Notes under the pieces: generated by a model | The model's database searches: none | The model's input: the letters and a program-made list of their open reading frames with translations, nothing else | Told to the model about the DNA's origin: nothing | Part shown: positions 51,602 through 62,129 of the stretch, piece by piece | How the letters are laid out: each line of letters opens with the position of its first letter | Position numbering within the stretch: position 1 is the stretch's first letter | Source: Peptococcaceae bacterium BRH_c8a | GTDB lineage: Bacteria > Bacillota > Desulfotomaculia > Desulfotomaculales > Desulfallaceae | Length of the DNA: 64,000 nucleotides | Assembly: GCA_000961575.1 (NCBI GenBank) | Contig: LADP01000010.1 | Coordinates: 1-64,000, forward strand | Direction of reading: 5' to 3' | Position numbers and translations under genes: made by a program

Positions 51602-52027
51602 CTACCCCGCTGGTTGCACCTTCTCATATGGCCAGGCTACAATGCCGCCCTTTAGGTTATAAACGTTATTAAATCCCTTGCCTGTAAGGAACCCCGCTGC
51701 GTCGGCGCTTCTCCGTCCGGTACGGCAGTATATAATTAGCTTTCCGGTTTGGGGTAGAGTACTAAAATCCTGCTTTAGCTTGCTTACCGGTATGTTGACT
51801 GCCCCGGGAATAAAACCTGTTTCCAGTAGTTCTTCAGGCTCTCGTACATCTACCAGGAAGTAATCCTTTTCCTCTTGGAGTATCGCTATTAGCTCATCGG
51901 CGCTGATATTTTGATACACCGGAGCGGCTTCTCCGCCACAGCCCGCCAAAACCGAAAAAGCTACCATTACCAGTAATAATGAGAGGCATATTCGTTTCAC
52001 TGCGCTTTGAGTTACATAACCTTTCAT
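51602..52027 (-). CDS. Rhodanese-domain lipoprotein
   Basis: A 141-residue exported sulfurtransferase-like protein. The lipoprotein signal (residues 1-30) ends with VLAGC. The rhodanese domain contains FLVDVREPEELLETGFIPGA and the active-site loop YCRTGRRS with the catalytic cysteine. ATG 52027 is chosen because it starts the signal peptide and follows AAGGGGGG; the frame continues 12 codons upstream through the GGAAGCAAGG repeat. It may handle persulfide or thiosulfate at the membrane surface. Confidence 0.88.
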   Translation of the reverse strand: MKGYVTQSAVKRICLSLLLVMVAFSVLAGCGGEAAPVYQNISADELIAILQEEKDYFLVDVREPEELLETGFIPGAVNIPVSKLKQDFSTLPQTGKLIIYCRTGRRSADAAGFLTGKGFNNVYNLKGGIVAWPYEKVQPAG

Positions 52028-52036
52028 TAATACACC

Positions 52037-52061
52037 CCCCTTGCTTCCAACCCTTGCTTCC
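52037..52061. repeat. Two GGAAGCAAGG units at the rhodanese ribosome site
   Basis: On the minus strand GGAAGCAAGGG and GGAAGCAAGGGG lie in tandem, the second supplying the purine-rich ribosome site of the rhodanese gene. The same unit builds the 44-bp palindrome at its 3' end. Confidence 0.7.
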
Positions 52062-52184
52062 AAGAAATCTTAAGACAATCTTAATAATTATATCAGGTGT
52101 TTTGCAAAAATCATCTGCCAGAATTGTTTCAAAGGCAGGTGATTTAGGTGTGCAGTGATAAAACAACATAGCGGGGTGATGGAA

Positions 52185-54906: not shown

Positions 54907-55365
54907 TTACTGCGGCCCAAGTAAAATAGGGCACGTTACTTTTTTAGCCAGGTGATGCAGGTTGAATCTCAACCCGGCGGCGGCTGCCGGTTCCGTGGAA
55001 TTGGGATTGGGAAGAACCAAAAGAACCGTACGCTCATTGTTGGCGGCTTCGGCAATAACCTTTTCGGTTTTGCCGGTTAAAATTGCAGTTTCAACTTTAA
55101 CCCCGCTTGAAACAGCCTGGTTGGAAAACTGGTTTAAAACTTGCTCCGCCCGGGTCTTTAATTCACCCTCGAACCAGGAGAAAAACTTCATTCTGGTATC
55201 GGATGTGTTAATCCACTCGTCTCCCAAGAGGCTTCCCCAGCCTTCGTCAAGAATGAAGACGGCGCGTAGGTCGGATTGCCGTGTGGCTGCCAATTCAATG
55301 GCAATGGCTCCGGCTTTGGTTGCTGATGCAGAACCGTCTGAGATAAACAGGATTTGTTTTTCCAT
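54907..55365 (-). CDS. Universal stress protein-like (UspA fold)
   Basis: A 152-residue protein. The N terminus ILFISDGSASATKAGAIAIE and C-terminal HHLAKKVTCPILL resemble UspA proteins. The canonical ATP-binding GxxGxxxxxxxxxGS is replaced by VLPNPNSTEPAAAAGLRFN, so nucleotide binding is doubtful. It is third in the order YeiH exporter - 44-residue protein - Usp on the minus strand, gap 17 bases, so probably co-transcribed. Confidence 0.75.
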   Translation of the reverse strand: MEKQILFISDGSASATKAGAIAIELAATRQSDLRAVFILDEGWGSLLGDEWINTSDTRMKFFSWFEGELKTRAEQVLNQFSNQAVSSGVKVETAILTGKTEKVIAEAANNERTVLLVLPNPNSTEPAAAAGLRFNLHHLAKKVTCPILLGPQ

Positions 55366-55382: not shown

Positions 55383-55517
55383 TTAAGCAGCTATAATGAT
55401 TATCAGCAGCATGACTACCGCGGCGCCGATAATGGCGGCCAAGTCTTCATGGCGTTCGTTTGTAAACAGTGAGAGTTTGCCTTTTTCTTTATCAGGAACA
55501 GCTTTTCCTTTTTGCAC
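55383..55517 (-). CDS. 44-residue single-span protein paired with YeiH exporter 1
   Basis: GTG 55517, with AAAGGAGG nine bases upstream. The polar N terminus (QKGKAVPDKEKGK) is followed by LSLFTNERHEDLAAIIGAAV and a helix ending VVMLLIIIIAA. The segment L-x-LF...ER-x-EDL-A is shared with the 37-residue protein at 60775-60888, which follows the second YeiH gene in the same arrangement. It lies 38 bases after exporter 1. Probably a small subunit or regulator of the exporter; no known family recalled. Confidence 0.7.
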   Translation of the reverse strand: MQKGKAVPDKEKGKLSLFTNERHEDLAAIIGAAVVMLLIIIIAA

Positions 55518-55555
55518 GAGATTATGCCTCCTTTAATAGCCAAGCCTTATTAATG

Positions 55556-56674
55556 TTAATCAATTAGTAGCAGTACAACAATCAGTGAACCTACGGCTTT
55601 TAATAGCCCGGCAGCTGAGCCCACTATCAGCGGTTTGCCGCCGGCTTTCTTCATTTCCGCAAAGGAAATTTGCAGACCCAGACCGGTTAAGCCAATGGCA
55701 AAGAACCAGCCGTACAACAACCGGAACATTTTCAGTTCTGCCGATGCGGGGTCAATGGAGCCAAAGGCACCGAAAGAGGTAAGCGTAACGGTGGCCAGAA
55801 AGCCAAGCACAAATAACGGGAACTTGGACATAAAGGAACCGGTTGTCGCGGCTGCTTCCTGGTTTTCGGACTCATTGCACATCCTGGTGTAGAGCAGCGC
55901 AATAACCATTACCACCAGGGGTAAAAATATAACCCTGGTCAGGTTGAATACTTCGCCGACCTTAAGGCTGATGGAAGGGTTGTCCACCGTCCCCGGGTCG
56001 AAAGCCAGGGCGGCCGCTAGAACTTGGCCGGAATTCAAAATGCCGGTACCGGCCCAGGCGCCGAACTGTTCACTGGAAAGGCCCATCAAGTGTCCCAGAA
56101 ATGGGAAAGTGAACATACACACCAAACCGAAAGACAGGATAGTGGCTATTGAGTAAGCGATATCCTCACCTTTACCACGCACTGCCGGGGCAACGGCCAC
56201 GATAGCGGAAACGCCGCACACACCCACACCGGCCGCCAGGCAGGCCGCTGAAGAAGTTGGCATATTCATCTTTTTGCCGAACCACATGGTGAAAATAATG
56301 GTACCGAAAACAAAGGCCAGAATCAGAACTACTGATGTGGCTCCCAGCGTAGCCAACTCGGCCAGGCTGTAGAGTGTACCCAGCAGAATAACACCCATTT
56401 TAATAAATAGCCGGGAGGTTTTTACCCCGTCCAGGGCCCAGGATGGGATGCCAATGGTGTTTCTAATGACCATCCCGATAACGATGACCAAAATTACATA
56501 ATTAATTTTTAATACTTTGCCTAGAAAGTCGGAATTAGCCTTGAGCACTCCTTCCAGGCCGATCCACTGGGGCAAGCCCAGATCCTTCGTGCCCATGGAC
56601 AAGGCCGCGATGAAAAACATCAGTAATAGTCCGGGTATCACTTTCCATAATTTTGAGGCGTAGCTATCTGTCAT
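55556..56674 (-). CDS. YeiH-family putative sulfate/anion exporter 1
   Basis: A 372-residue membrane protein with about ten to eleven helices of the YeiH/UPF0324 (PSE) family. Signature segments: GLPQWIGLEGVL, FIKMGVILLGTLYS, AAGVGVCGVSAIVAVAPAVR and GTGILNSGQVLAAALAFDPG. It is 45 percent or so identical by eye to exporter 2 (60972-62129). Family members are proposed to export sulfate or sulfonates. It is first in an operon with the 44-residue and Usp proteins, divergent from the kinase gene. Confidence 0.9.
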   Translation of the reverse strand: MTDSYASKLWKVIPGLLLMFFIAALSMGTKDLGLPQWIGLEGVLKANSDFLGKVLKINYVILVIVIGMVIRNTIGIPSWALDGVKTSRLFIKMGVILLGTLYSLAELATLGATSVVLILAFVFGTIIFTMWFGKKMNMPTSSAACLAAGVGVCGVSAIVAVAPAVRGKGEDIAYSIATILSFGLVCMFTFPFLGHLMGLSSEQFGAWAGTGILNSGQVLAAALAFDPGTVDNPSISLKVGEVFNLTRVIFLPLVVMVIALLYTRMCNESENQEAAATTGSFMSKFPLFVLGFLATVTLTSFGAFGSIDPASAELKMFRLLYGWFFAIGLTGLGLQISFAEMKKAGGKPLIVGSAAGLLKAVGSLIVVLLLID

Positions 56675-57086
56675 GATTATCCCTCCGAAGTCTAATATTG
56701 CTTCCGTGCAGTTAAACCTTAAGTATAGTAAAACAGTTTAGACCAACAAATAGTCAGGAATTCTCTAATTCACCGCCTTTCTTGTAGATTTAAAACAAGA
56801 TTTGAGCTTCTAAGCCAAAATTAAAACTAGCAATGATGTTGTTAGGCTTTAAGGTCAAATTACAAATGCTAATGATTCGGATAACCACCGCTAATAATTG
56901 CGGTACTCAAATAATAGCCCAACGGCGCAAATAATCAATGCCGGCAGGCTAGTATGGCCTTTTTAGGTAGGGCATGTGACGTGAATGGTTCACCAGGGTG
57001 AACACTTTGGTTCATTTTTATGACAATTTTGTCCTGAAGGGATGGTTGCATTTGTGTCGAAAATTTAGAAATTGAAGGTGATATAA
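56675..57086. other. Divergent regulatory region between exporter 1 and kinase genes
   Basis: No coding sequence seen. It is AT-rich near 56700-56880. A small stem ACCGC/GCGGT (56888-56904) is present. GAAGGTGA ribosome site before the GTG/ATG-region start at 57087. Likely holds the promoters for both sides and binding sites for the response regulator, but no repeated motif could be fixed by eye. Confidence 0.4.
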
Positions 57087-58721
57087 GTGAATGACATAAA
57101 AAAATATCGCAGCTGGTTTTTAGCATTTATATCGATAATATTGGTGATACCCGCATTACATCTGTACGGGACTTTTTCCACACCTGTTAAGATAAAGAAT
57201 TTAGATAGTGATTATAGGCTTTTATCTGAGTATTACGAACTAAATCATGATCTTACCCAACTGACATCAAGCGCTCGGGCGTACGTTCTGCATATGGACG
57301 GGCAGTATATTAGCGAATTTGATGAGCTTGGCATTGCTGTGGTTACCCGAGAAATGGATCTTTTTAACCGGGCGGCTTCCGAAACGGATAGGGATGCACT
57401 AAAAAAAATAATCGACCTGACAGAAGCATACATCACCAGTTATCGTAACGAAGTTGTACCGCTATTGGAAAACGGGGATCAGGATTACATGGAGGTGTAC
57501 CGGGAAAAGTGTGAACCGCTGGCTTACGAGTTAAGCGTGGTTTCCCGGCAGGCCCTGGCAGGAATGCGGGAAGATTTTACGCGTCATACCGTAAGCGAAA
57601 CCGCTATGGAAAGCAGCCTGTGGGTTTTTTCTGCCTTCCTGATGGTTGCTGCTCTGGTGTTACTTGTTTACGGCTGGATGCAAATTGTGTCACCGATGCT
57701 GTTTAGACATCACCATCTGGTGAACCTGGCGGAACTGACCGGTGACGCGCTGGTGGTGATAGACAAACGTGGTCAGGTATCCGCAGTAAACAGAGCAGGT
57801 GAAAAACTGTTACATGTTCGTGCCAAAGATATTGAAGGGGAGCCATTAAATGAAGTCATGGTTCGCTACCCTCTCCTTCAGGGGTTATTTCAGCCCCTGC
57901 TGGATTTAGCGTCCAAGGATGCGGAAGCGGTAAATAACCAGGTAATATTTGAATTGGGCGGGCAAAGGATGCTTTTGAGTGCAGATTACCATCCTTTATA
58001 TTTTGCCGGCCAATTATCCGGCGCCATGCTGGTGACCCGTCCGGTAGAGATCCACAAGGACAAGCGGTTCCTTTTTGATGCCATTGAGGCGGAACGAAAA
58101 AAAATATCCATTGAAATACACGATTGGGTTGGACGCAACATGTCAACAATTATCCACTCTCTGGATTACACGCTCAAAACCGGTGCCGGGAGAGTTCCGG
58201 TGGATTTAAATGAGGATTTGGTAAAACTGAGATTTCAGTGTCAGAGTGCGGCCATGGATATGCGCGGTATCATGAACGATATCCATCCCTATCTGATTGA
58301 TAAGGTGGGGCTGCTGTCCGCACTGGAATCATACGTAACCAGGTTCGAGCAGATACACGGGCGTAAAGTATACATTTTCTACCGGGATCGGGTGCTGAAC
58401 CTGGGCAAGGCCGAGGAAATAATTGTATACCGGATTATCCAGGAGGCTTTAACCAATGTGGTAAAACACAGTAACGCGAATGAAGTGGACATCTATTTCA
58501 AGGAAACCGATGGCTCACTGCAGGTGGAAGTTATGGATAACGGTGAGTCCCAGGGTCAATTAGCGGCGGGCAACGGGTTATGGGGGATGAAGGAAAGAGC
58601 CAATTTAATCGGCGGGGATTTGGTCTGTAACGGCGGAGAAACTGGTTTTGCCGTAACATTAACCGTCCCAGTGACAGCGGAGGGAAAAACCAATGGCCCA
58701 GATAAAGATAATGCTTGTTGA
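57087..58721 (+). CDS. NarL-type sensor histidine kinase with four-helix sensor and PAS
   Basis: A 544-residue kinase. Helices at 9-29 and 180-202 enclose an extracytoplasmic four-helix-like domain. A PAS domain (about 215-325) reads GDALVVIDKRGQVSAVNRAG. The HisKA_3 region has KKISIEIHDWVGRNMST with the phospho-His, and the ATPase has IQEALTNVVKHSNANEV and GNGLWGMKERA. GTG-start with GAAGGTGAT. Its end overlaps the regulator gene by 29 bases. It probably senses an external ligand and controls the flanking exporters. Confidence 0.92.
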   Translation: MNDIKKYRSWFLAFISIILVIPALHLYGTFSTPVKIKNLDSDYRLLSEYYELNHDLTQLTSSARAYVLHMDGQYISEFDELGIAVVTREMDLFNRAASETDRDALKKIIDLTEAYITSYRNEVVPLLENGDQDYMEVYREKCEPLAYELSVVSRQALAGMREDFTRHTVSETAMESSLWVFSAFLMVAALVLLVYGWMQIVSPMLFRHHHLVNLAELTGDALVVIDKRGQVSAVNRAGEKLLHVRAKDIEGEPLNEVMVRYPLLQGLFQPLLDLASKDAEAVNNQVIFELGGQRMLLSADYHPLYFAGQLSGAMLVTRPVEIHKDKRFLFDAIEAERKKISIEIHDWVGRNMSTIIHSLDYTLKTGAGRVPVDLNEDLVKLRFQCQSAAMDMRGIMNDIHPYLIDKVGLLSALESYVTRFEQIHGRKVYIFYRDRVLNLGKAEEIIVYRIIQEALTNVVKHSNANEVDIYFKETDGSLQVEVMDNGESQGQLAAGNGLWGMKERANLIGGDLVCNGGETGFAVTLTVPVTAEGKTNGPDKDNAC

Positions 58722-59307
58722 GGATCATAATATCGTCAGGGAAGGCCTCAAAAGGTTGATTGAAATGGAGGAAGGCCTGACAGTGGTGGCGGAGGCCGGT
58801 ACCTGTGGGGAAGCCCTGGATCAAATGCGGGATGATGTGGATATTGTGCTGCTGGACATCAAATTGCCCGATGGTGACGGTCTGGATCTATGCCGGGAGA
58901 TGGGCAGGGTCAACTGCCGGGTTAAATATATTGCTCTGACCACGTACGACGACGCTCATTTTATTCGTAAGGCGCTGGAGTGTGGGGTACACGGATTTAT
59001 TCCCAAGTATGCTTCTTTTGACGAAATAAAATCGGCCATCGCAATCACGTTCAGGGAAGGCCGGTACCTGTACCCCGGACTGGGTCTGGACGTGATCATG
59101 AAACTGCCCCAAAGCGGCCTTACCGATACTGAGACCCGGGTGCTGAATATGATTGCCGCCGGCGGGGCTCAAAAGGATGTGGCTGCCGCCATGTTTATAA
59201 GTTTGTCCACCCTGCGGCGTAGGATTAGGGGCATATGTACTAAATTGGGCGTGGAGACCCTGGAGGAAGCTCTTGCTTCGGCGGTCAAAAAAGGATTGGT
59301 GCAGTAG
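58693..59307 (+). CDS. NarL/FixJ-type response regulator
   Basis: A 204-residue regulator. The receiver has VEDH, phospho-Asp in VLLDIKLPDGDG and K in FIPKYAS. The helix-turn-helix part is LTDTETRVLNMIAAGGAQKD and STLRRRIRGICTKLGV, a slightly diverged LuxR-type domain. It is coupled to the kinase gene and 22 bases before the Cache/PAS sensor gene, forming one operon. Confidence 0.92.
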   Translation: MAQIKIMLVEDHNIVREGLKRLIEMEEGLTVVAEAGTCGEALDQMRDDVDIVLLDIKLPDGDGLDLCREMGRVNCRVKYIALTTYDDAHFIRKALECGVHGFIPKYASFDEIKSAIAITFREGRYLYPGLGLDVIMKLPQSGLTDTETRVLNMIAAGGAQKDVAAAMFISLSTLRRRIRGICTKLGVETLEEALASAVKKGLVQ

Positions 59308-59329
59308 AGCAGCCGGGGAGGTTTGAAGC

Positions 59330-60778
59330 ATGGCGGACAGGTTTGATAATACCACTAAAACTATGGCTATCCTGGCCGTAATTTTTTTTGTGCTGCTGAT
59401 TATATTATTTTTTCTGCTGGAGTTTCGGTTTCTGAAGAAAATTATGGTTGAGTACGAGGATAATATTGAGCGCATTGTGCTGAGCGAAACATATTCTTTT
59501 ATGCACGAACTGGAGTTTTATACCGACACCACCGCAAGCAGGTTGTCCGGTGAGGACAGCCTGCGGGACAAAGAACTACTGAGCGCTATTGCGGCGGAAA
59601 ACCCCAGGGTGATTGATATTCAGTTGTTGAATGAACGTGGGTATGTATTACATTCGCTGCGGAGTCCGGCAAATTATTTATACCCCGGCAGCGGGTTGAA
59701 ACAGGCTGCTCCCGGACGTCCCTATTTATTTAGTATTGTTGAGCAGGGCCGGGTTAACGAATTGTGTGTGGCGGCAGTTATGGACAGTCATTCCGGGGCC
59801 GGCGGTTACTTATTGATTACCTACCGAATCAACGATTTACAACAAAAATTTATTTTAAAATATGCCACCCAAAAGTTGAAAATTGCCCTGGTGGATAACG
59901 CGGGTAATCCGCTGGTATGGCCTTTTGCCGAAGACATGATTACTTATCTGGCACCCGACAGGGATAGTCTCACTGCCGACAATGTGCGTTACAGTATCCA
60001 ACGAGCAGAATTGGACAAATCCAACATTAATGTTTTGTTCTTTCATCAAGATACTCACTTTGACACCTATCGCATCATAGCCATTATGTTTCTTTTATTT
60101 GCCCTGTATTTTTTAATTTATCATTTCATTGTTGAATTTTTTAAAATCAATAACGTTAATTCCTATTTTGAGAATATCGATTTTAATATTTTTAACCATT
60201 TGCAAGAGGGTATTATTATTGCTAATAATGCCGGCAGGCTGGTATTTGCCAACAGCGAGGCGTATAAAATTTTTGCCGGTAAAAGAATCGAAACCGGTAA
60301 AACTGTTTTAAGTGAGTTAATCGGCCCTCTGGAGGGTCAAAACGGTCGGCTGACCCTAAAAAAATCCGACGATCTGCTGGAAATTATACTATCACCGATT
60401 ATTAAAAACGGCAGGCAACTAGGTTCTTTGGCGGTTATCGGCCCTGATTCGGAAAGGGAGAAGCTTTGCCACAATGCTATGGGCAGGGTATTTGAACACT
60501 TGGTAGATGGTCTCGTTTTTGTGGATCGGGAGTGTAAAATCGTGGCATCCAACATGATGGCCAGGTATTATTTAGGTAATCTGCAAGACGGCATGAATTT
60601 AGGTGAAGTTAACACTGAACTGATGGCCCTGGTGGAAAAACACATCGGCTCTACCAAACCGATTAGAGAAAAGCTGGCTTGGTCTGATGCCCCCTGTGAA
60701 CTGTTGCCCGTATTCGACGGCAACGGCCTGTATGCCGGCACGATTATATTCATCAAGAACGAAACCAGTTATTGTTAG
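59330..60778 (+). CDS. Cache plus PAS sensor protein without output domain
   Basis: A 482-residue membrane protein. Helix 12-35, an extracytoplasmic Cache-like domain (about 40-240, with LNERGYVLHSL and VDNAGNPLVW), a second helix (245-267), then two PAS-like domains (FNHLQEGIIIANNAGRLVFA; VFEHLVDGLVFVDRECKIVA). There is no kinase, cyclase, methyl-acceptor or DNA-binding domain after the second PAS. It probably feeds a signal to the adjacent kinase by direct contact. Its stop overlaps that of the antisense 37-residue gene by four bases. Confidence 0.82.
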   Translation: MADRFDNTTKTMAILAVIFFVLLIILFFLLEFRFLKKIMVEYEDNIERIVLSETYSFMHELEFYTDTTASRLSGEDSLRDKELLSAIAAENPRVIDIQLLNERGYVLHSLRSPANYLYPGSGLKQAAPGRPYLFSIVEQGRVNELCVAAVMDSHSGAGGYLLITYRINDLQQKFILKYATQKLKIALVDNAGNPLVWPFAEDMITYLAPDRDSLTADNVRYSIQRAELDKSNINVLFFHQDTHFDTYRIIAIMFLLFALYFLIYHFIVEFFKINNVNSYFENIDFNIFNHLQEGIIIANNAGRLVFANSEAYKIFAGKRIETGKTVLSELIGPLEGQNGRLTLKKSDDLLEIILSPIIKNGRQLGSLAVIGPDSEREKLCHNAMGRVFEHLVDGLVFVDRECKIVASNMMARYYLGNLQDGMNLGEVNTELMALVEKHIGSTKPIREKLAWSDAPCELLPVFDGNGLYAGTIIFIKNETSYC

Positions 60779-60888
60779 TAGAACAGCAGTACAATGATCA
60801 ATATTATTGCTGCAATTGCCATAGCGGTTAAATCTTCCAGACGTTCCGATAAGAAATACAATTTGTCGTTATCCCTATCTTTATACAC
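60775..60888 (-). CDS. 37-residue single-span protein paired with YeiH exporter 2
   Basis: GTG 60888 with GGAGGTGA eight bases upstream. It reads YKDRDNDKLYFLSERLEDLT, then MAIAAIILIIVLLFY. The LYFLSERLEDLTA segment matches LSLFTNERHEDLAA of the 44-residue protein. It lies 83 bases downstream of exporter 2, mirroring exporter 1. Not co-directional with the sensor gene that it touches. Confidence 0.7.
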   Translation of the reverse strand: MYKDRDNDKLYFLSERLEDLTAMAIAAIILIIVLLFY

Positions 60889-60934
60889 CAGTGTCACCTC
60901 CGAAAAAACTGTTATTTTATCTTATGCCGAAGAC

Positions 60935-60967
60935 TCCCACTTATATAAGTGGGATCTATTTTTTTAC
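60935..60967 (+). terminator. Terminator-like perfect palindrome
   Basis: TCCCACTTATATAAGTGGGA is a perfect 20-bp palindrome followed by TCTATTTTTTT on the plus strand. It could end the kinase-regulator-sensor transcript, which would run antisense across the 37-residue gene; on the minus strand it sits between exporter 2 and that gene. Confidence 0.65.
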
Positions 60968-60971
60968 TTAA

Positions 60972-62129
60972 TCACGGGTGTTCGGCAATCAACAGTAGCA
61001 CCACCAGCAAAGCTCCCACCAGCTTAACCGTGGCTGCTGTTATACCCACCAACAGGTGACTGCCCCCCGCCCGGCGCAGTTCCTCAAAGGAAATTTGCAT
61101 GCCCAAGCCCGCCAGTCCGATGGCAAAAAACCAACTGTACAGGCGTCTAATAAATACCAGTTCGGGGGATGGCGGTGTAGTTTCCCCCAGCATACCGAAA
61201 GAGGTCATGAACACTACGAACAAAAAACCAACTACAAAAAGAGGAAAGTTTGTTCCCAGTTTGGTGTTGATGCCAAAACCATCACCATCACCATCACCAT
61301 CACCTTTGCCGGAACGGCTGCAATAAACAGCCAGGAACAGAACCACAAAAGGCAGAAATAGAATTCTGGTCAGGTTGTATATTTCACCCGTCTTCAAACT
61401 AGCCGAGGCATGTTCGGCGGTGCCGGGGTCGAAGCTCAACGCAGCGGCCAGCACCTGGCCGGAATTAAGTATCCCGGTACCTACCCAGACACCGAATTGG
61501 TGCGGGCTTAAACCCAATAAAGTGCCTATGGCGGGTAGCATAAACAGGTAGAACAGGCCCACACCGAGAATAGTGGCAATAGAATAGGCAACATCGGTGG
61601 ACTTTGCGCGCACCGCTGGTGCAACCGCAACGATGGCTGACACACCGCAGATTGCAGTACCGGCCGCCAGCACCGACGCGGCAGCCGGATCTAGCCCCAG
61701 CCTTTGCCCCAGATATAGGGTTAAAGTTAGGGTGAAAATAACAAAAGCCAGAATTATTACAAAGGCAGTGGAACCTAGGTTGGCCAGGTCTCTGAAGCTG
61801 TACAGCGAGCCCAGCAAAATAACGCCCAGCTTGATAAATAAGCGGGAAGTCCTGGTGATGCCCGGGGCAAGCAGGGGGGGGATGCCGATTAAGTTGCGCA
61901 GCAGTATCCCGGTGATAATACAGATAAGTACATAATTAAGGTGCAAAATATTAACCAGGTATCTGGCCGTAACCGGCCTTGCTGCCAGTATTGATTCCAA
62001 ACCTTGCCACTGAGGGAAACCCAGATCCGCTCCGCCCCTGGCAACCACAGCTACCGCAACCATGGTTAAAATGCCCGGCAGCAGATGAATTAAATACAGC
62101 AGTGTCTTAATTTTCGACACACCCCGCAT
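60972..62129 (-). CDS. YeiH-family putative sulfate/anion exporter 2
   Basis: A 385-residue paralogue of exporter 1: GFPQWQGLESIL, FIKLGVILLGSLYS, AAGTAICGVSAIVAVAPAVR, GTGILNSGQVLAAALSFDPG. One cytoplasmic or periplasmic loop carries a GDGDGDGDG tract encoded by a hexanucleotide repeat (61279-61304) that exporter 1 lacks. The start is placed at ATG 62129, with no good ribosome site; a GTG three codons later is possible. It is followed by the 37-residue gene. Confidence 0.9.
   Translation of the reverse strand: MRGVSKIKTLLYLIHLLPGILTMVAVAVVARGGADLGFPQWQGLESILAARPVTARYLVNILHLNYVLICIITGILLRNLIGIPPLLAPGITRTSRLFIKLGVILLGSLYSFRDLANLGSTAFVIILAFVIFTLTLTLYLGQRLGLDPAAASVLAAGTAICGVSAIVAVAPAVRAKSTDVAYSIATILGVGLFYLFMLPAIGTLLGLSPHQFGVWVGTGILNSGQVLAAALSFDPGTAEHASASLKTGEIYNLTRILFLPFVVLFLAVYCSRSGKGDGDGDGDGFGINTKLGTNFPLFVVGFLFVVFMTSFGMLGETTPPSPELVFIRRLYSWFFAIGLAGLGMQISFEELRRAGGSHLLVGITAATVKLVGALLVVLLLIAEHP
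61279..61304. repeat. Hexanucleotide tandem repeat inside exporter 2
   Basis: Four copies of CCATCA on the plus strand (GGTGAT sense) encode Gly-Asp repeats. Copy-number change would keep the reading frame. Confidence 0.85.

Follow-up and report, generated by a model that had tools for sequence, protein, structure and literature searches.

Two YeiH-type transporter genes, each followed by a tiny gene

The window, by which we mean the whole 64-kb stretch of DNA that was analysed, contains two genes for YeiH-type transporters, each with a very short open reading frame at its 3' side (Table 1). An earlier note on this DNA had described two YeiH exporters followed by tiny genes for 44 and 37 residues, with GTG starts, strong ribosome sites and a common ER-x-EDL motif ahead of one hydrophobic helix. 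Our analysis agreed on all of these features, coordinates included. The tiny 1 protein reads MQKGKAVPDKEKGKLSLFTNERHEDLAAIIGAAVVMLLIIIIAA, and tiny 2 ends in ...DKLYFLSERLEDLTAMAIAAIILIIVLLFY. The motif takes the form F-x-x-E-R-x-E-D-L in tiny 1 and F-L-x-E-R-x-E-D-L in tiny 2, and leads into the hydrophobic helix in each. An alternative GTG at 60897 would lengthen tiny 2 to 40 aa; we preferred the 37-aa start because this GTG overlaps the ribosome site. The stretch between the two transporter-tiny pairs (57087-60778) encodes a histidine kinase and a LuxR-type regulator, and also a membrane protein with only weak Cache/PAS matches, whose gene is convergent with tiny 2, their ends overlapping by 4 bases.

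Table 1. Coordinates of the genes and ribosome-binding sites at the two transporter loci of the window
Feature	Coordinates	Strand	Details
Universal stress protein (Usp), the triad's third gene, after tiny 1	54907..55365	-	PF00582, 31.6 bits
Tiny 1, single-span E-D-helix protein	55383..55517	-	44 aa, GTG start; SLFTNERHEDLAAI plus helix; 3' of transporter 1
Ribosome-binding site of tiny 1	55527..55534	-	Sequence AAAGGAGG, 9 nt 5' of GTG
YeiH-type transporter 1 (PSE family, PF03601)	55556..56674	-	372 aa; PF03601 195 bits, TIGR00698 117 bits
Sensor histidine kinase (PAS, HisKA_3, HATPase)	57087..58721	+	Pfam; homologous genes at most of the order's loci
Response regulator, receiver plus LuxR/GerE	58693..59307	+	Pfam
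Membrane protein, weak Cache and PAS matches	59330..60778	+	Pfam (weak); kept in most loci of the order
Tiny 2, single-span E-D-helix protein	60775..60888	-	37 aa, GTG start; YFLSERLEDLTAM plus helix; 3' of transporter 2
Ribosome-binding site of tiny 2	60897..60901	-	Sequence GGAGG, 8 nt 5' of GTG
YeiH-type transporter 2 (PSE family, PF03601)	60972..62129	-	385 aa; PF03601 199 bits, TIGR00698 119 bits

Both transporters score over the PF03601 cut-off (24.5 bits; PSE family, TC 2.A.98) and below that of TIGR00698 (232.6 bits). Judged by these profile scores, they are members of the PF03601 family but belong to a subfamily other than TIGR00698. The term "exporter" is a family name; the direction of transport is inferred. 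Within transporter 2, a 6-bp tandem repeat (window 61262-61300) gives rise to a run of Gly-Asp units (GDGDGDGDG), which falls in a predicted loop. Near the block, at 51602-52063 on the minus strand, a small protein with a lipoprotein-like signal and rhodanese-like sequence (YFLVDVREPEELLETGFIPGAVNIP) is encoded.

The tiny open reading frames are genes under selection

Open reading frames that combine the [ED][RK]x[ED]D motif with a C-terminal helix occur exactly twice in the 64 kb, as tiny 1 and tiny 2, and never in 40 dinucleotide-preserving shuffles of the window. A profile of the family, run against the 4.17-Mb host genome, matched only the same two genes, with E values of 5e-15 (tiny 1) and 1.5e-12 (tiny 2). 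One alignment row (L034) is truncated, and the profile performs nonetheless. Estimates of dN/dS from sets with distant pairs (0.54 to 0.64) were saturated and were discarded; closer pairs were used instead, namely orthologues whose YeiH proteins are 70 to 98% identical. Across 36 independent pairs, the peptide core gave a pN/pS of 0.204 (p ~4e-94 versus neutrality), so that coding selection, the absence of which would have spoken against the earlier proposal, is present.

Very short frames that start with GTG and belong to no database family (neither tiny 1 nor tiny 2 matched a Pfam or NCBIfam model) could be taken for spurious or non-functional remnants. Such remnants would not be expected to show this pN/pS, residues that are invariant across phyla and near-universal presence beside the transporter. 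Given the shuffles, the selection and the conservation, we regard this explanation as practically ruled out.

Transporter and peptide are found together across phyla

We sampled 113 genomes of the order to which the host genome belongs, which includes Desulfoscipio, Desulforamulus and Moorella relatives, and examined 36 YeiH genes of the window subfamily. The small gene was directly downstream of 35 of them; the sole exception (L061) lies close to where its contig ends, and a copy is present elsewhere in the same genome, on a different contig. A second YeiH subfamily in the order has a related peptide in 17 of 17 cases, 14 downstream (type B) and 3 upstream (type C). From named genomes of Bacillota, Thermodesulfobacteriota and Pseudomonadota, 79 loci were picked by YeiH similarity and not by the peptide, among them Desulfotomaculales, Desulfosporosinus, Desulfovibrionales, Desulfobulbaceae and Sulfuricella, Gallionella and Thiodictyon relatives. 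The small gene lies immediately 3' of YeiH in 78 of these. The pairing thus passes the check for conservation beside YeiH in related genomes, and chance adjacency is ruled out by the named loci and the second subfamily. One gammaproteobacterial MAG carries two transporter-peptide-Usp triads in tandem (L138:4719-9303), and a MAG labelled Actinomycetes (L116) has a locus of the Moorella-like Bacillota type that is probably mis-binned or transferred.

A search for orphan copies in 398 genomes of the phylum with the type A and type B profiles gave strong matches in the same order only. No further copies were found in 198 genomes of the Desulfovibrio phylum beyond two known loci, and outside the order the type C profile gave only marginal matches. 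The divergence of the peptide mirrors that of the transporter (r = 0.87; the best of 999 permutations reached 0.18). As this correlation also reflects shared descent, it supports long co-inheritance and not contact. Together, these observations show that the genes are real, selected, exclusive to this YeiH clade and nearly universal beside it.

The peptide core follows the consensus [TS]-[LV]-F-x-x-[DE]-R-x-E-D-x-x-A-[IML]. Among 81 sequences, E and D are each conserved in all, R/K in 80 and F in 78. Type B peptides carry K-x-R-[RK]-Q-D-Y and type C peptides F-[SA]-A-E-R-x-E-D. Comparison of the type A and type B profiles gave an E value of 1e-4, and whole-genome searches with the type C profile returned type A genes, including window tiny 1, among the best matches. 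Types B, C and D had no Pfam or NCBIfam match near any cut-off. In Desulfovibrio and relatives, the small protein has ~123 to 135 aa and carries a biotin/lipoyl-like barrel-sandwich domain at its C terminus (PF13533, E 3e-9 to 4e-14); the analogy with HlyD-type adaptors suggests that this C terminus may be periplasmic, which remains an inference. The barrel-sandwich (HlyD-type) extension was seen in Desulfovibrio/Desulfobulbaceae loci L127-L170, and some beta- and gammaproteobacterial copies have a Pro/Ala-rich tail. We saw no small gene fused to the C terminus of a split-clade YeiH; a stop codon separates every downstream copy.

A probable counterpart of the peptide is fused to longer YeiH proteins

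The PSE family comprises 9-TM PSE_1 and 11-TM PSE_2 proteins, the latter with two extra N-terminal helices (PMC8396727). The window transporters share the core of PSE_2 but start at it (PF03601 matches YeiH 1 from residue 14) and lack both extra helices. Longer YeiH proteins (~445 to 500 aa) in the same genomes open with an extra helix, for example WSDLWKKEDYWAIWMGLGVVLAALIFF. On full-length long YeiH, the tiny-protein profile aligned at this N-terminal helix, E-D on E-D, with a score of 20.1 that was equalled in none of 300 shuffles keeping the hydrophilic/hydrophobic layout. With the type B profile, 3 of 200 shuffles were equally good. Statistical support for the likeness is moderate (E 0.004), and comparisons of one helix are weak. 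The first extra helix of PSE_2 has an invariant E-D-[YW] in register with the tiny proteins: the E-D pair was present in 22/22 complete fused N termini and in 19/20 members of a fused subfamily of 490 to 510 aa. One fused-branch protein, L067, lacks the motif; its ORF begins close to the end of a contig and is apparently truncated. In PSE_2 the helix is part of the transporter and is followed by a second one, whereas in the split forms it is encoded by a separate gene, downstream (types A and B) or upstream (type C).

We built a maximum-likelihood tree of 90 proteins, midpoint-rooted and with several long branches. All helix-bearing YeiH proteins, fused and split, fell on one side of a branch supported at 100/99 (77 rows: 55 split with the gene downstream, 3 split with it upstream, 18 fused and 1 truncated), and E. 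coli-type YeiH, which lacks this helix, on the opposite side. Split forms grouped with support of 99/96 and fused forms with 100/100. This topology is read most simply as a single origin of the helix with a single fission or fusion event; the order of the states is undecided. Since the profile aligns on the fused helix and the fused and split forms make up one clade, the peptide most probably represents an accessory helix with a gene of its own.

Structure models were compared for both forms. A read-through model of Desulforamulus putei YeiH, a close homologue, with its in-frame small gene had a pLDDT of 76 and a pTM of 0.70 (small helix ~70 to 85), and a model of a fused-type YeiH reached 85 and 0.82 (N-terminal E-D helix above 90). 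By VIA-align, the read-through model matched NapA (Z 15.1; 272 aligned, rmsd 4.4), CitS (Z 13.0) and ASBT (Z 12.9). The fused-type model matched NapA with a Z of 14.2 from about residue 90 onward, which places its two extra helices outside the core fold. Foldseek gave no significant match for either model (best E values of 0.04 and 0.005). The fold statement is therefore based on VIA-align together with the published assignment of the PSE fold as reentrant-helix-reentrant, related but distinct (PMC8396727). A sequence search of the PDB with the transporter found nothing. On these models, both transporter cores are predicted to belong to the NhaA/CPA fold group; Z values of this size call for caution in helical bundles.

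Association with sulfite reductase, Usp and a published phenotype

The host genome carries dsrA. Outside the order, DsrA was over the cut-off in 43 of 50 genomes with the pair, and 3 more had it in long pieces; within the order, dsrA was present in 35/37 carriers of the pair against 75/113 genomes overall. This co-occurrence is partly due to shared ancestry, and the converse fails, many Dsr genomes being without the pair. A gene for a Usp directly follows the small gene in all 54 loci outside the order. Within the order it is adjacent in only 1 of 23 loci examined, and window tiny 1 also has one.

In Salmonella, resistance to sulfite depends chiefly on YeiH (PMC12880088). The D. vulgaris Hildenborough cluster DVU0542-0545 encodes a Usp, a PSE transporter, a 133-aa protein with one TM and a second Usp, and adjoins a divergent histidine kinase/regulator pair (PMC10102598). 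Disruption of DVU0543, DVU0544 or DVU0545 in each case raised fitness with molybdate; DVU0544 was not described as a subunit (PMC10102598). Because its architecture and size, between the PSE transporter DVU0543 and the Usp DVU0545, match the motif-bearing Solidesulfovibrio loci L142-L144, DVU0544 very likely belongs to the same family, an equation made by size, topology and gene order without an alignment. Relatives of DVU0544 (e.g., L137) have the C-terminal barrel-sandwich domain, which the window proteins lack. Among the functional evidence to date, the shared molybdate phenotype is the strongest, with the proviso that polar effects are possible. That sulfite is the main substrate is an inference without transport data, which we favour by a modest degree only.

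The peptide as an accessory helix of the transporter

We consider it highly probable that each tiny gene is a real, dedicated partner of its YeiH transporter. The earlier note had proposed such a partner, comparable to KdpF or CydX; the proposal is upheld by a gene that is almost always adjacent, exclusive to this clade and under coding selection, by paralogue types that match and by divergence that is mirrored, the word "subunit" remaining an inference. The earlier note had not noticed the fused helix of the 11-TM branch, the range across phyla, the Usp as a regular third member or the dsrA association. The comparison holds for the kind of protein: like KdpF and CydX, the tiny proteins have fewer than 60 residues and one span and are co-encoded with one large membrane protein. 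There is no sequence relationship, and no match to a known small-subunit family was found in Pfam or NCBIfam. Unlike KdpF and CydX, the window peptides have a predicted CPA/NhaA-fold carrier as partner and a counterpart helix that a sister branch carries in fused form, and their binding is inferred. The family is new in that it lacks a Pfam or NCBIfam model, and known as a kind, a KdpF/CydX-like accessory micro-protein.

Our model is that the peptide is probably a separately encoded equivalent of the PSE_2 N-terminal helix; binding and docking are inferred. Most likely inserted N-in, it would hold [DE]-[RK]-x-E-D on the cytoplasmic side, where its single membrane helix begins, and dock on the nine-helix NhaA/CPA-type core. 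There it would take the role of the first of the two extra helices of PSE_2 and stabilise or gate the carrier, possibly also relaying a signal from the co-encoded Usp. In bacteria that have dissimilatory sulfite reductase, the transporter would carry a sulfur oxyanion, for which sulfite is the likeliest candidate. The docking site, the gating, the substrate and the direction are all inferred. A point against an accessory helix is that E. coli-type YeiH works without one: E. coli and Salmonella YeiH (TIGR00698) have the PF03601 core in common with the window transporters, and at the classical YeiH genes examined we found neither a fused nor a separately encoded E-D helix.

This independence of classical YeiH would also suit a dedicated regulator, such as a degradation tag or an MgtR-/AcrZ-type modulator, that docks elsewhere and resembles the fused helix by convergence. 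The merely moderate significance of the profile alignment leaves room for such a regulator, as does the further fused subfamily with another small partner that lacks E-D. However, three peptide types share the register of an acidic residue and D with the fused helix, and fused and split forms make up one clade, and we find convergence improbable. The regular presence of Usp outside the order raises a different possibility, that the peptide is no structural part of the transporter and is instead a membrane anchor or adaptor bringing Usp, or another regulator, to the exporter. A Usp directly after tiny 1, an invariant motif predicted to be cytoplasmic and the common phenotype of DVU0543-0545 (PMC10102598) would all fit. 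Yet of the 23 small genes examined within the order, 22 have no adjacent Usp while YeiH is always there, and the fused form links the helix to the transporter and not to Usp. An anchor of this sort is unlikely as well, and we retain the accessory helix as our working interpretation.

A broader reading is conceivable, although we put it forward only tentatively and doubt it somewhat more than we believe it. According to this reading, a helix of a CPA-fold oxyanion carrier occurs either fused to the carrier or as an independent gene that can change position (downstream, upstream, or extended by a periplasmic barrel-sandwich domain). With Usp, it would make up a fixed system of three parts, so far without a name, by which Dsr bacteria handle sulfite and in which the invariant E-D pair would gate or assemble the transporter. 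The whole PSE family would rely on dedicated micro-proteins, given that a different small protein accompanies another fused subfamily.

A conserved, dedicated partner offers a handle on the control of toxic sulfite in Dsr bacteria and on the substrates of PSE transporters; when such transporters were expressed in other hosts, a subunit that they need may have been missing. It also provides a context for DVU0544, an uncharacterised gene with a published phenotype, and a natural comparison of a helix in two states, built into a larger protein or encoded on its own.

The small partner of the 490- to 510-aa fused subfamily fits no Pfam or NCBIfam model. It is a distinct single-span protein encoded directly downstream of the transporter in 17 of 20 loci examined (L190-L209, e.g., L195:1382-1555 on the minus strand, and L041 and L112), with the motif EEW-[YF]-x-L-x-P-x-EKKLI-x-x-SL-x-LG...
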